This document shows positions 2,672 to 32,900 of a DNA stretch of 54,589 nucleotides, one piece after another; the first letter of the stretch is position 1, and every line of letters begins with the position of its first letter. Under the pieces are notes generated by a model that was not told the DNA's origin, did no database searches, and worked only from the letters and a program-made list of their open reading frames with translations. Origin of the DNA: a candidate division TA06 bacterium SM23_40 (GTDB lineage Bacteria > LJUI01 > SM1-40); contig LJUI01000008.1 of the NCBI GenBank assembly GCA_001303705.1, positions 1 to 54,589 of the forward strand, read 5' to 3'. The position numbers and the translations under genes are program-made.

Positions 2672-3417
2672 TCGACTCGACCATATCTCCGCTCACGCCT
2701 TCCGAATTCCCTGACAGCCTCGTAAAGATGCTCCCGCCGGAAATCTGGCCACATCACATCGGTTACCCATATCTCCGTGTAAGCGAGCTGCCAGAGGAGG
2801 AAGTTGGAGATGCGGAGTTCCCCGCTCGTCCGTATCAGCAGATCGGGGTCCGGGATTTCGGGATCATACAGGTAGTTGCGAAAACTCTCCTCGTCCAGCG
2901 CATCGAGTGAGAGCTCCCCCGTCTTGATCCTGCGCGCAACGGATCGAACGCCATCAACGATCTCACTCCGTCCTCCATAGCTGAGGGCCAGGCGGAGCTT
3001 GAGTCCGGTATTGCCTGAAGTCTCCTTGATCGCCCTGATCAGTTCATCGCGCACTGGCCCCGGCAGGTCGTCGATCCGCCCAATCGTCCGCAATTGCACC
3101 TGATTCTTCTGTAATTCCTTGAGCTCCGACCGGATCTGCTCCCGTAGGAGGCCGAGGAGTGCCGATATCTCTCGTCTCGGACGTTGCCAGTTCTCGATCG
3201 AGAACGCATAGATCGTGAGGACATCAATGCCCATTTCACCACAGGCACGCACCGTATCTCGAACCGACTCGATACCTGCCCGGTGCCCGGCAATGCGCGG
3301 CAATCCACGCTGCCGGGCCCATCGTCCGTTCCCGTCCGGTATGACGGCAAGATGACGGGGCAGCGTTGCTCCCTTCAGATCCTCAGGTACCCCTTCTTGC
3401 TCGTTTCGCCCTGGCAC
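2668..3417 (-). CDS. uppS: Isoprenyl (undecaprenyl) diphosphate synthase
   Basis: Cytosolic cis-prenyltransferase that extends farnesyl diphosphate with isopentenyl diphosphate to give the C55 carrier lipid for peptidoglycan and LPS. The PDGNGRWA motif holds the catalytic Asp (about residue 28, close to E. coli D26). Also visible are YAFSIENWQRP, LALSYGGRSEI and the C-terminal PDLLIRTSGE-R-SNFLLWQ-AY-E block. The frame stays open upstream to 3609, but that codon lies inside the -35 box of the operon promoter, so it cannot be the start. I chose the GTG at 3415-3417, with GAGGG eight bases upstream; an ATG at 3474 without a ribosome site is the alternative. Confidence 0.93.
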   Translation of the reverse strand: MPGRNEQEGVPEDLKGATLPRHLAVIPDGNGRWARQRGLPRIAGHRAGIESVRDTVRACGEMGIDVLTIYAFSIENWQRPRREISALLGLLREQIRSELKELQKNQVQLRTIGRIDDLPGPVRDELIRAIKETSGNTGLKLRLALSYGGRSEIVDGVRSVARRIKTGELSLDALDEESFRNYLYDPEIPDPDLLIRTSGELRISNFLLWQLAYTEIWVTDVMWPDFRREHLYEAVREFGRRERRYGRVE

Positions 3418-3732: not shown

Positions 3733-4290
3733 CTAGACCTCCATGATCTCCTTCTCCTTATCCAGTAATAGAGCGTCGACCTCTTCGATGGTCTTGTCCG
3801 TCAGCTCCTGAATCTTCTCGAACCACCGGTGCTCTTCATCCCGGGATATCTCCCCCGTCTTCTCCATCTTCTTGAGAGCATCGTTTGCGTCCCGGCGGAT
3901 GTTGCGCGCCGCGATACGACCCTCCTCTGCCAGCTTTCTGACGACCCTCACGAGTTCTTTCCGCCTCTCCTCAGTCAGGGGGGGGATGGGGACGCGCACG
4001 ATGTTTCCGTCGTTCGACGGCGTGAGTCCCAGATCAGACTTGTGCAGAGCCCTCTCGATCTCCGGAATGATGCTCTTGTCCCACGGTTGAATGACGAGGA
4101 GCCGCATTTCCGGCACGCTTATACCCGCGACCTGGCTGAGCGCGACCTGCGAGCCGTAGTAGTCCACCTTGATGCCGTCAAGGAGCGTCGTCGTCGCCTT
4201 GCCCGTCCGTATCCCCGCCAGTTCGCGTCCCACCGCCTCGACGCTCTTCTCCATCTTCGCCTTGGTTTCTCGAAAGACAGGATCGAACAT
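3733..4290 (-). CDS. frr: Ribosome recycling factor
   Basis: Splits post-termination ribosomes together with EF-G. The 185-residue length is exactly that of the family. Recognisable blocks are GRELAGIRTGKA-T-LLD near residues 22-39, YYGS-VALSQVA at 44-54, and the C-terminal helix VRKLAEEGR-AARNIRRDAND. GGAGG lies eight to nine bases before the ATG, inside the last codons of pyrH. It is the last gene of rplM-rpsI-rpsB-tsf-pyrH-frr and is followed by a clear terminator. Confidence 0.97.
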   Translation of the reverse strand: MFDPVFRETKAKMEKSVEAVGRELAGIRTGKATTTLLDGIKVDYYGSQVALSQVAGISVPEMRLLVIQPWDKSIIPEIERALHKSDLGLTPSNDGNIVRVPIPPLTEERRKELVRVVRKLAEEGRIAARNIRRDANDALKKMEKTGEISRDEEHRWFEKIQELTDKTIEEVDALLLDKEKEIMEV

Positions 4291-4294
4291 GGAA

Positions 4295-5014
4295 TCAACC
4301 CTCCCTCACAACCGTACCGACCTTCTCTCCTTCTATAACACGACGAAGGTTACCGCTCACGTTCAGGTTGAAAACGATGATCGGCAGGGAGTTCTCCATA
4401 CAGAGTGAGATCGCCGTGGCATCCATGGCCTTGAGACCCTTGCTCAGGACTTCGAGATAGGTGAGCTCATCGTACTTGGTTGCATCCGGGACCTCCACCG
4501 GATCCGCATCGTAGATCCCTTCGACCTTAGTGCCCTTCAGGATAACCTCTGCCCCGATCTCCACCGCGCGGAGCGTGGCGGCCGTATCAGTTGTGAAGTA
4601 GGGATTTCCTGTCCCACAGGCAAAAATGACGACTCGGTTCTTCTCCAGATGTCGCGTCGCTCGCCGCCTGATATATGGCTCCGCCATCTGGGATATTGCT
4701 ATTGCGCTCATCACACGGGTCACAGTGCCGTGCTTTTCCAGGTAATCCTGAAGGGCGACGGCGTTGATCATCGTGGCGAGCATCCCCATATAATCACCTG
4801 TGACTCGCTCCACTCCCAGATGCTCTGCCGTGTGGCCGCGAAAGATGTTCCCGCCCCCGATCACCAGTCCCAACTCGACTCCAGTCTCCACTGCATCGAG
4901 CACTTCAGTGCCAACGCGTTCAAGCGACATGGGATCTATCCCACGCCCACCCTCTGGCGCGAGGACCTCACCGCTCAACTTCAGCAGAACACGTCCGTAT
5001 CTCCGCTCTGACAC
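4295..5014 (-). CDS. pyrH: UMP kinase
   Basis: Phosphorylates UMP to UDP, feeding pyrimidine nucleotide and cell-wall precursor pools. From the GTG at 5012-5014 the protein is 239 residues, matching the family. Motifs visible are VLLKLSGE at the N-terminus, [12 protein letters not shown], the [16 protein letters not shown] segment, and [17 protein letters not shown]. The frame is open further up to 5068, but that would overlap tsf and add unmatched residues; GGGG lies about six bases before the GTG. The tsf-pyrH-frr order is widespread. Confidence 0.95.
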
Positions 5015-29868: not shown

Positions 29869-29944
29869 TGGTGGAGCCGACGGGATTCGAACCCGTGACC
29901 TTTTGACTGCCAGTCAAACGCGCTCCCAACTGCGCCACGGCCCC
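29869..29944 (-). tRNA. tRNA-Ala (anticodon GGC), CCA encoded
   Basis: The 76-base minus-strand sequence folds as a cloverleaf. The acceptor stem GGGGCCG/CGGCTCC has the G3-U70 pair that identifies alanine tRNA, with discriminator A73. The anticodon stem is TTTGA/TCAAA around loop CTGGCAG, giving anticodon GGC for codons GCC and GCU. The T-loop is GTTCGAATC, and a genomic CCA follows. It has its own promoter 70-100 bases upstream. Confidence 0.96.
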
Positions 29945-30868: not shown

Positions 30869-32158
30869 CTAGACCCGAGTCACCCTCGCGGTCAACCCTT
30901 CCACTCCGGTGACCTTTACTCGTTCGCCCTTCTCTATCCTCTCGTCAGACGTGGCCCTCCATATCTCCCCGTGCACCAGAACCGTTCCCTCCGACTCCGC
31001 ATCGATGGGCGATCTGACGACGCCGATGAGACCCGTCAACCCTTCCGAACCCGTGGCGGGCTTCCTCAGCTGCGCCCTCAGCCCCATACCCACGGCAAAG
31101 ACGAAGAACGCGACGGTCGTGAGCACGGCCGGGATGATGACCGACCAGGAGACTCGGAGGAATGGCTCTGACGAGTCGATCAGCAAAACAGATCCAAGCA
31201 CCATAGCTGCTACGCCTCCGATCGTCAAGATGCCGTGAGAGGGCACCTTCAGCTCGAGGATGAACAGAATCATCGCCAGGACGATGAGCAGTAATCCTGC
31301 ATAGTTGATAGGCAGGGTCTGAAACGCAAGGAATCCAAGGATGAGACAGATCGCCCCCACGACACCGGGAAAGATCGCACCTGGATTCTGGAGCTCGAAC
31401 AGGAGTCCGTAGAATCCGAGAATGAACAGGATGTAGGCAACATTGGGGTTGGTGATTACGTGGAAGACCTCATCACGCAGGCCCATGGCGATCTGACGCG
31501 TCGCCGCCTCCCTCGTTGCGAGCGTCACCGTCCCTGATGCCACCTCGACCTCGTGCCCATCTATCTTCTCGAGCAGTCCCGGGATGCTGAGAGCGACGTA
31601 CTCTATGACAGAAAGCTCTAGAGCCTCCTCTTCAGTAGCCGACGCACTCTCGAGAACCGCCCGCTCCGCCCACTCTACATTTCTCCCCCTCCGCTCGGCG
31701 AGAGCACGCACATATGCTGCGGCATCTCTCGTCATCTTCTCGGAGAGCACTTCATCGGTCCCCTCTCCCCCAATAGTCACCGGATGGGCGGCACCGATAT
31801 TAGTGCCCGGAGCCATGGCCGCGATGTGAGCGGCGAGAGCAATAACAGCACCGGCAGAGGCAGCACGGGCGCCCCCGGGGGAGACGTATACAACGACCGG
31901 CACATCCGCAGCCAGAATGCGCTTGATGACCTGACGCATCGACTCATCGAGGCCCCCGGGAGTGTCCATCTCGATGATCAGGCACTCGGCCCCATCTTCC
32001 TCAGCCTGGTCGATCGCCCGGACAAGGTACCGGGCGGAAAATGGTGCGATCACCCCCTCAAGACGTGCCACATCGACATGTTGGCCCGGAGCAGAATACG
32101 CGGCAATGAAGATGACCGGACCCGCGACGAGCAAGAGAAATCGCGTTCTCACGTGCAC
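30869..32158 (-). CDS. nfeD: NfeD-family membrane serine protease (ClpP-like domain plus OB fold)
   Basis: Membrane-bound protease partner of slipin. The 429 residues start with a signal-like helix, then a ClpP/crotonase-type protease domain with MDTPGG, the serine in [15 protein letters not shown] and the lysine in SEKMTRDAA. Four to five membrane helices follow (about 235-375), then a C-terminal OB-fold domain [10 protein letters not shown] ... [11 protein letters not shown]. This is the long, complete NfeD type. The GTG at 32158 has GGAG five bases upstream; a GTG two codons later and one at 32197 are alternatives. Its promoter is at 32212-32240. Confidence 0.92.
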
Positions 32159-32211
32159 ACACTCTCCCGGGTTATGACGACAGTTCAACCTGGCCAAGTT
32201 CGCCCGCCACT

Positions 32212-32240
32212 AGTGTAACTGTCGAAAGGACATGAGTCAA
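32212..32240 (-). promoter_or_regulatory. Sigma-70 type promoter for nfeD-slipin
   Basis: Minus strand TTGACT (32235-32240), 17 bases, TACACT (32212-32217). The predicted start near 32205 leaves about 45 bases to the nfeD start. The boxes lie just left of the repeat array. Confidence 0.7.
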
Positions 32241-32248
32241 GCCTAACT

Positions 32249-32395
32249 TTCGCACCTGTCAATGCCAAATAGAAATGTCCGGTTCTTAGCCAAGGTAGAA
32301 ATGTCCGGTTCTCAGCAACATAGAAACGTCCTGTTCCCAGCCAATCGGAAATGTCCGGATTTCGCCACGATATGAGTGTCCCATTCCGCTCGTGC
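32249..32395. repeat. Array of five degenerate 25-bp direct repeats, possible insertion-sequence end relic
   Basis: Five head-to-tail units begin near 32270, 32296, 32321, 32346 and 32371, spaced 25-26 bases. They share TAGAAATGTCCGGTTCT followed by (T/C)AGCCA. Units 1 and 2 are nearly identical and unit 5 is the most decayed. TGTCA at 32257 may mark an element tip. Arrays of AGAAATGTCC-type repeats remind me of the multiple transposase-binding repeats at ends of IS21-like or ISNCY elements, but I recall this from general knowledge and could not check it. No transposase lies nearby. The 360-base gap between nfeD and the DUF2089 gene holds only this array and the two divergent promoters. Confidence 0.75.
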
Positions 32396-32453: not shown

Positions 32454-32483
32454 TTGACAAAATCAATAAACACCTAATATAAT
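32454..32483 (+). promoter_or_regulatory. Strong sigma-70 type promoter for the DUF2089/SHOCT operon
   Basis: Plus strand TTGACA (32454-32459), 18 bases, TATAAT (32478-32483): both hexamers match consensus. It lies in a conspicuously AT-rich island (about 32435-32520) within GC-rich surroundings. The predicted start near 32490 is about 30 bases before the first GTG, which has GAGGAG eight bases upstream. Confidence 0.85.
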
Positions 32484-32519: not shown

Positions 32520-32900
32520 GTGAAGCCTAAGAATCTCGTAAGCAGGTGCCCGGTGTGTGGGGAGGCAATGGATGTGACGCGCCTGGAATGTCGAGCCTGC
32601 TCCGCGGCCCTCGAAGGCCGGTTCACCACGTGCGAATTCTGCCAGCTCTCCCCGGAACAGGCTCAGTTCGTCCGCATCTTCCTCAGGTGCCGCGGCAACA
32701 TCCGGGAGGTAGAGAAGGAGCTCGAGATCTCCTACCCCACCGTCAGAAACCGACTTGACGCCGTCCTTCAGGCGCTGGGGTGCGTGCCCGAGGACAGAAA
32801 GGAGAGACAGAGATTGAGGGCTGACGTCCTTTCTCAACTCGAACGAGGGGAACTCCCCGTCGACCAGGCGATCAAGATACTGAAAGATGACGGCGTGTAA
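32520..32900 (+). CDS. DUF2089-family zinc-ribbon/helix-turn-helix regulator
   Basis: Predicted small DNA-binding regulator of 126 residues. A zinc ribbon comes first (CPVCGEAM at 10-17 and CRACSAALEG at 25-34, then CEFC at 39-42). A helix-turn-helix domain follows (about 50-92; FLRCRGNIREVEKELEISYPTVRNRL). Last is a short helical pair VLSQLERGELPVDQAIKIL (about 103-121) of the SHOCT-like type. It heads the only plus-strand operon in the window. The start is GTG with a good ribosome site. By family it probably regulates its own operon, but that is inference. Confidence 0.85.
   Translation: MKPKNLVSRCPVCGEAMDVTRLECRACSAALEGRFTTCEFCQLSPEQAQFVRIFLRCRGNIREVEKELEISYPTVRNRLDAVLQALGCVPEDRKERQRLRADVLSQLERGELPVDQAIKILKDDGV

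Follow-up and report, generated by a model that had tools for sequence, protein, structure and literature searches.

A decayed IS1202/ISNCY-family end behind the predicted nfeD promoter of a candidate division TA06 bacterium and a probable preference of its branch for promoters

The short tandem repeats between two divergent predicted promoters in a candidate division TA06 bacterium raise the question of whether they are a regulatory site or the remains of a mobile element. The window, by which we mean the whole 54,589-nucleotide (54.6-kb) stretch of DNA analysed, carries five units of 25-26 bp at 32270-32395, starting at 32270, 32296, 32321, 32346 and 32371 (spacings 26, 25, 25 and 25), and to the left of them an element tip, TGTCAATGCC, with which the feature begins at 32257. 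A first-pass annotation made from the sequence had described five units at this spacing with decay rising from left to right, and the array is real on both counts: matches to the core TAGAAATGTCCGGTTCT run 17, 17, 14, 13 and 11 of 17 from unit 1 to a weak unit 5, Tandem Repeats Finder at its default score finds it to be the sole tandem array in the window (score 111, 3.8 copies), and a three-unit pattern has two matches in the array and none in 100 shuffles. The -35 boxes also lie where they had been placed, TTGACT complementary to 32235-32240 and TTGACA at 32454, and the units abut, at ~25 bp each and without spacers, in keeping with the earlier statement that this is not CRISPR. The features are as follows.

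30869-32197, minus strand: nfeD-family gene, with a TTG start as listed; the true start may be further in
32212-32217, minus strand: -10 box TACACT of the predicted nfeD promoter (sequence and promoter scoring)
32235-32240, minus strand: -35 box TTGACT of the predicted nfeD promoter, spacer 17, the presumed insertion target (sequence and promoter scoring)
32241-32256, no strand: 16 bp from the -35 box to the tip, the presumed place of the target duplication (by analogy with two-ended copies)
32257-32269, plus strand: element tip TGTCAATGCCAAA (same tip in other copies and other genomes)
32270-32295, plus strand: unit 1, core 17/17, a presumed transposase site (core match)
32296-32320, plus strand: unit 2, core 17/17 (core match)
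32321-32345, plus strand: unit 3, core 14/17 (core match)
32346-32370, plus strand: unit 4, core 13/17 (core match)
32371-32395, plus strand: unit 5, core 11/17, weak (core match)
32454-32483, plus strand: predicted promoter of the DUF2089 operon, TTGACA-N18-TATAAT, read from the sequence; context, outside the element
32520-32900, plus strand: DUF2089 gene; context, outside the element

The plus-strand neighbours encode a DUF2089 protein, a LiaF-like membrane protein and a SHOCT-like protein, and nfeD lies on the minus strand. At gathering threshold, Rfam matches nothing in the window except a tRNA gene at 29872-29944 (minus strand). The array-side tip is TGT, and an opposite tip was not found within the window, where the best match to a left end (13 of 24) lies under the shuffle mean of 13.6. 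For this copy, a second target duplication was not found, no duplication rose above control, and no transposase tail motif was present in three frames.

A set of operator sites for the DUF2089 protein, or for another regulator of the two divergent genes, would fit direct, evenly spaced units between two predicted divergent promoters, and was one of two readings in the first-pass annotation, which also proposed searching the rest of the genome for the unit. BLAST and pattern searches of the host genome (2.88 Mb, 189 contigs, ~90% complete) found similar ends in twelve copies besides the window, 13 in all: on contigs C43, C68, C111 (two arrays used), C168, C102, C182, C92, C65 and C177 (three used). 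All 13 tips begin TGT, with TGTCAA in 8, and the other copies have two to three units each compared with five in the window. By eye, among the loci listed, these copies adjoin other kinds of genes, such as a valyl-tRNA synthetase-like ORF on C102. The tip pattern TGTCAANNCNANNTAGAAATGTCC, with at most one mismatch, occurs in 28 of 386 sampled genomes, and its reversed control in none. Units with a TGT tip beside other kinds of genes in the same genome, like units at the ends of transposase elements, the spread of the tips among sampled genomes and the decay of units 3-5 all argue against an operator. Since the units are not confined to DUF2089 promoters, we ruled this reading out on distribution and consider it very improbable.

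Five of the host-genome copies (C111a, C65, C68, C177b and C177c) are short and two-ended, and eight are one-ended. The two-ended copies are 88 bp long, C68 being 113 bp with one extra unit, and their far tip is ACA, or GCA in C65. Their 16-17-bp flanks match, in the same order, at 15/16, 15/17, 12/17, 12/17 and 13/17 positions; four of the five matches exceed their own 99% control limit, and that of C177b (12/17) falls between the 95% and 99% limits. For the eight one-ended copies, the window among them, a second duplication was not found within 2.2 kb. On C177 (L039, 1159-1370), one short two-ended copy follows another in tandem at a distance of 105 bp, and a 17-bp stretch flanking both lies between them, an arrangement that could reflect repeated insertion beside an existing copy or amplification.

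Past the units, a tail of ~100 bp is common to C111b, C182 and C102, with part of it in C92 and a short piece in C43. Its opposite-strand translations include KKVYTPPPEHLWRRR (C102), KKVYTP-stop-PDHPWRRRYKPP (C111b) and DHPWRRRYKPP (C182), and the opposite strand beside C177c reads PADHPWRRQYRP. Judged by their predicted sequence, the opposite-strand tail peptides beside some arrays are C-terminal remnants of a transposase. The inner edge of another copy's transposase tail on C111 carries a further degenerate pair of units, oriented alike (L033, 5017). An intact ISNCY transposase was not detected in the ~90% complete host genome, in which nothing scored over the NF033594 cut-off; two weak matches below that cut-off, to the N-terminal part of the model, lie on C129 at 2873-3319 (L059-L061), with a unit-like word at 4825.

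Transposases beside like ends in other genomes identify the family. A blastn search with one array against plasmids returned 35 records, and in three of the four regions that we opened (Paraburkholderia, Cupriavidus and Burkholderia) an annotated ISNCY transposase ends beside the array; in two of these Burkholderiaceae elements the units stand at both ends. Two of the plasmid transposases score 514 and 506 bits against NF033594 (cut-off 250). The fourth region, from Acinetobacter, has two opposed ends ~150 bp apart with no transposase between them. This small element of the same kind, on Acinetobacter baumannii plasmid pD13-2 (L057, ~3995-4170), carries two units at each end and sits directly before a RelE/NadS toxin-antitoxin pair. 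An apparently complete element of 1,470 bp, which ends at a contig end (L127), encodes a transposase of 423 residues (399 bits for NF033594) as its only ORF of at least 200 aa, and the C-terminal RKVYIPPKDHPWRK of this protein aligns to the tail beside the C102 array with 8 of 14 residues identical (E = 1e-4). The L127 transposase shares 53% identity over 415 positions with that of L068, the same element as L121; the two elements have class II and class I tips, respectively, the second and main tip classes described below. Relatives carry Q seven residues past the catalytic E, the E being assigned by eye, in GRVERAHLTLQDR, GRVERLFNTLQDR and GRIERLFKTFQDR.

The first-pass annotation had left the choice between an IS21-like and an ISNCY-like solo end; the ISNCY half stood and the IS21 half did not. 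IS21 ends likewise carry repeated sites, the likeness that had spoken for that family. The transposases beside like ends score 24-39 bits against the IS21 model (cut-off 160), compared with 399-514 bits for ISNCY (cut-off 250), and on these models an IS21 end was ruled out. The rve profile (PF00665) also has no match in the host genome, although the ISNCY transposases P0001 and P0002 lack an rve match as well. An IS21 origin is thus exceedingly improbable, and the expectation that ends of this kind would be found beside transposase genes is borne out by the ISNCY transposases that like units flank in other genomes.

The window array is almost certainly the decayed end of a relic IS1202/ISNCY-family element, the end proximal to the transposase C terminus. 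Because the host genome yielded no intact family transposase and intact relatives with like ends encode ISNCY transposases, we regard it as an end without its element. A second inner-TIR copy near the end is a trait of the IS1202 family and is present in the window as five units at 25-26 bp; the family transposase within the element, a further trait, is absent, so that the window holds a relic end and not a complete member. An IS1202/ISNCY element would have inserted at the nfeD promoter, 16 bp behind the -35 box, and would since have lost its transposase gene and its other end, the 25-bp units being the putative transposase-binding sites of the remaining end, by analogy with the TnsB sites of Tn7. 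As a relic the array is nothing out of the ordinary, and we infer that it is now neutral. Such a relic could also have been co-opted, the five-unit array serving nfeD or DUF2089 as an insulator or upstream element and having gained its extra units for that role. Five units are unusual, the exact three-unit pattern occurring in only 4 stretches of an 84,980-species collection (L064, one of these, adjoins a fragment of an ISNCY transposase that is 230 residues long and scores 162 bits, cut-off 250), and one-ended copies outnumber two-ended ones in the host genome by 8 to 5. Against co-option, decay grows away from the tip, and C68 illustrates that small two-ended copies can gain or lose a 25-bp unit, so we consider co-option unlikely.

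The position of this relic end raises the further question of how it came to lie at a promoter. The window tip (TGTCAA, 32257) is 16 bp behind the TTGACT -35 box of the predicted nfeD promoter (TTGACT-N17-TACACT), a spacing whose recurrence at many other insertion sites the first-pass annotation had not noted. Using E. coli-type weights scored against mononucleotide shuffles, by which all promoters discussed here are predicted, we found the -35 box of the best promoter at 14-17 bp from the tip in 9 of the 13 host-genome copies (window, C43, C68, C111a, C111b, C168, C102, C65 and C177a); the scorer did not find one at that distance in C182, C92, C177b and C177c. Beyond the host genome, matches to the tip pattern were listed in the 386 genomes, 4 viral contigs and further stretches, giving 68 matches with 64 distinct flanks; 63 sites, one of them the window, have flanks of at least 45 bases among the matches listed. 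L097 and L133, from one genome, have near-identical flanks and are not independent. In 27 of the 63 sites, among the matches listed, GTCAA, the reverse complement of TTGAC, ends 15-17 bp ahead of the tip. With the 12 further host-genome copies added, this becomes 34 of 75, compared with 43 of 14,037 positions drawn at random from those loci, and every other 3-bp window up to 53 bp holds four or fewer GTCAA words.

These words are also often accompanied by a -10-like word. In the 75 sites, TANNNT stands at a spacer of 16-18 beside 30 of the 34 GTCAA words, compared with 69 of 523 other TTGAC words; in the 63-site set the count is 23 of 27, compared with 27 of 71 intergenic TTGAC words (Fisher p = 2e-5) and 19 of the 312 remaining ones. 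At 17 of the 27 GTCAA sites, and at 12 of the 36 without the word, the first leftward ORF of 60 aa or more begins 59-137 bp from the tip. For tips of class I, the best promoter lies 15-17 bp from the tip in 33 of 62 sites (34 genomes or contigs), where shuffles predict 4.4, and 17 of 34 sources (30 genomes and 4 viral contigs) have at least one GTCAA site at 15-17 bp; at 4-7 bp class I has no clear excess (8 sites, 5.8 expected). At the array end, about half of the class I sites lack a promoter at 15-17 bp, only 2 of the 15 tips that start with TGTCAAC have one, and the viral contigs have a target at the array end in none of 4. Outside the main set, the best -35 box lies at 15-16 bp in Nitrospinae (L065), Thermodesulfovibrionales (L066) and genome G065 (L072), the last two being weaker cases in that L066 needs a 19-bp spacer and the -10 box of L072 is TACAAG. 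No promoter was found at the class I distance in WWE3 (L063) or Bryobacterales (L064), and an Aliivibrio element had neither a duplication nor, by eye, a promoter.

An expectation fixed in advance called for GTCAA at 15-17 bp in no fewer than 25% of new sites. It failed: 0 of 15 new sites, which came from 5 genomes of one genus and mostly have class II tips, carry the word there. In 6 of the 15, GTCAA lies at 5-7 bp instead, and most of these sites share the tip variant TGTCAACCACATT and others alike. For class II, which was defined after seeing the data, the best promoter lies at 4-7 bp in 12 of 16 sites, compared with 1.4 expected from mononucleotide shuffles, and all 12 have a spacer of 17; the exact GTCAA matches (6 of 16) all come from one genome. 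The step of ~10 bp between the class I and class II distances is suggestive, no more, of one face of the DNA. At several loci of genome G217 (L124, L125, L128-L131, L185-L191, L193 and L194), the sequence ends 75-150 bp into the element, suggesting that many G217 contigs break within one and the same element of high copy number, which is perhaps recently active.

The other end of these elements can also face a promoter. Among 13 distinct left ends with at least 58 bases of flank, the best outward promoter lies at 15-17 bp in 6, where 1.0 is expected; two of the six (L112 and L142) reach p <= 0.05 singly, and C177b, with a score of 0, plainly has no promoter. The left end of L113 has a TTGACT that abuts a perfect 17-bp duplication (p = 0.07), and both viral contigs L112 and L113 have a candidate promoter behind the other end. 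An early view that orientation is fixed had covered array-bearing ends only and was dropped; since promoters are predicted behind the other end in 6 of 13 cases, there is no fixed orientation, and some of the sites that lack a promoter at the array end may have it on the opposite side. A 480-bp two-ended copy in G187 (L142, contig C20, 961-1441) lies between two outward promoter-like sequences, 16 bp behind one and 17 bp behind the other.

Where duplications can be read, they abut the -35 box. L121, a 1,527-bp class I element with a transposase and with TGT and ACA tips, has a perfect 15-bp duplication abutting GTCAA, and L091 is arranged alike, with one inserted base in one copy of the duplication (by eye). 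Duplication lengths are thus 16-17 bp in the two-ended host-genome copies, 17 bp in L113 and 15 bp in L121. Because the duplication abuts the box, the core promoter is spared at these readable sites, and insertion in this manner would leave it intact.

Element-free counterparts were sought in G075, G217, G347, G226 and G339 for insertion flanks from G217, G075, G347, G208 and G086. In seven of nine comparisons, covering five insertions, the flank was found without a unit-like word nearby, six times in a sister species and once in the same genome, this last (L093 compared with L165) being a second place and not a sister species; therefore, the promoter-like sequence exists there without the element. 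For L124, the alignment with both relatives extends through the last base ahead of the tip, after which each relative continues into other DNA. For L125 compared with L167, the word was found in sequence without 25-bp units, and the word test gave no call on the absence of the element. L132 compared with L164 was rejected as an empty site because the two share a relic: the L132 tip (G075, contig C145, 2422-2552) lies behind a tRNA-Glu gene read away from it, and the homologous place L164 in G217 has the remnant of a small two-ended copy.

That the tips lie at a fixed distance from many promoter-like sequences, and that such sequences exist at homologous places free of the element, argues for insertion directed by promoters, and a promoter preference of this IS1202 branch is highly likely. 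The branch would favour sigma70-type promoters and insert behind the -35 box at a set spacing, which is 15-17 bp in the main tip class and 4-7 bp in the second. We infer that the transposase reads the promoter, through either RNA polymerase or a sigma factor or through the DNA sequence. The simplest form of the latter would be a transposase that reads only the TTGAC word, which is similar to its own tip (TTGACA when read on the opposite strand), with insertions outside promoter regions being lost by selection. GTCAA is indeed the strongest single feature (27 of 63 sites, among the matches listed) and equals part of the tip TGTCAA. A TTGAC word alone accounts less well for the -10 matches beside these words (23 of 27), which exceed those beside other intergenic TTGAC words (27 of 71), and for several sites at the class distance in which a weak -35 box (TTGCCA, TTGTAA, TTGCTT or TTGATT) stands with TANNNT at spacer 17. 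This reading is, on balance, less likely than not. The -10 enrichment and the sites with a weak -35 and a good -10 favour RNA polymerase or sigma70 over the TTGAC word as what is read. We tentatively propose, at somewhat short of an even chance, that the elements hunt promoters: the transposase would engage RNA polymerase or sigma70, as has been proposed for XerC at dif, and integrate behind the -35 box at a distance of about two helical turns (15-17 bp) or, for class II, of about half a turn to a full turn (4-7 bp), with the duplication abutting the box and the host gene still expressed.

Among known systems, the closest is the IS1202 family, which was defined by Harmer et al. 2023 as having ends of the form 5'-TGT...ACA-3' and a transposase in which Q follows the catalytic E by seven residues, and for which a second transposase site near each end is described in ISAjo2-type members (PMC10132070). 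The long-duplication group (IS1202, ISCARN53/62/63, ISTde1, ISHahy13 and others) has duplications of 16-28 bp, and for elements whose duplications are longer or absent the authors report no conserved target, noting that independent examples are lacking (PMC10132070). The copies described here resemble this group in their tips, their 2-5 units, the Q in relatives and duplications of 15-17 bp, and differ in that many sites lie at a fixed distance behind a -35 box and that the window copy consists of a single five-unit end. Elements of the ISAjo2 type sit 5 bp from the XerC site of dif, for which direct contact between transposase and XerC has been proposed (PMC10132070). A fixed distance to a protein-binding site is common to both; the ISAjo2 group has a recombination site as its target, a 5-bp duplication and a fixed orientation, whereas class I here has a promoter-like target, a 15-17-bp duplication and no fixed orientation. 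TGT/ACA tips and several transposase sites per end are shared with Tn7 and TnsB, as stated by Harmer et al. (PMC10132070). Unlike Tn7, the L127 element has the transposase as its only ORF of at least 200 aa, and the targets differ. MITEAba12 was considered as a relative and set aside as unrelated, having a 9-bp duplication (PMC6382973). Insertion sequences often lie <100 bp from genes, with no phasing to the -35 box stated in the sections of that work consulted (PMC9208149).

In the literature searched, a library with few subscription papers and no preprints, we found no description of a promoter target for the IS1202 family or of targeting phased to the -35 box. To our knowledge, no bacterial element has a sigma70 promoter at a fixed distance as its target. 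The yeast elements Ty1 and Ty3 integrate upstream of Pol III genes and work alike in taking a set place relative to promoters that spares the gene; they are unrelated eukaryotic elements, and we make no claim of common family. What is new here is that a branch of insertion sequences for which earlier work found no target seems to settle behind sigma70-type promoters at a set spacing. Should this hold, promoters would be read by a simple DDE transposase, with a host protein or a promoter word guiding integration, which would account for the spread of such elements without the breaking of genes. Their relic tips might then mark the positions of promoters in uncultured bacteria.
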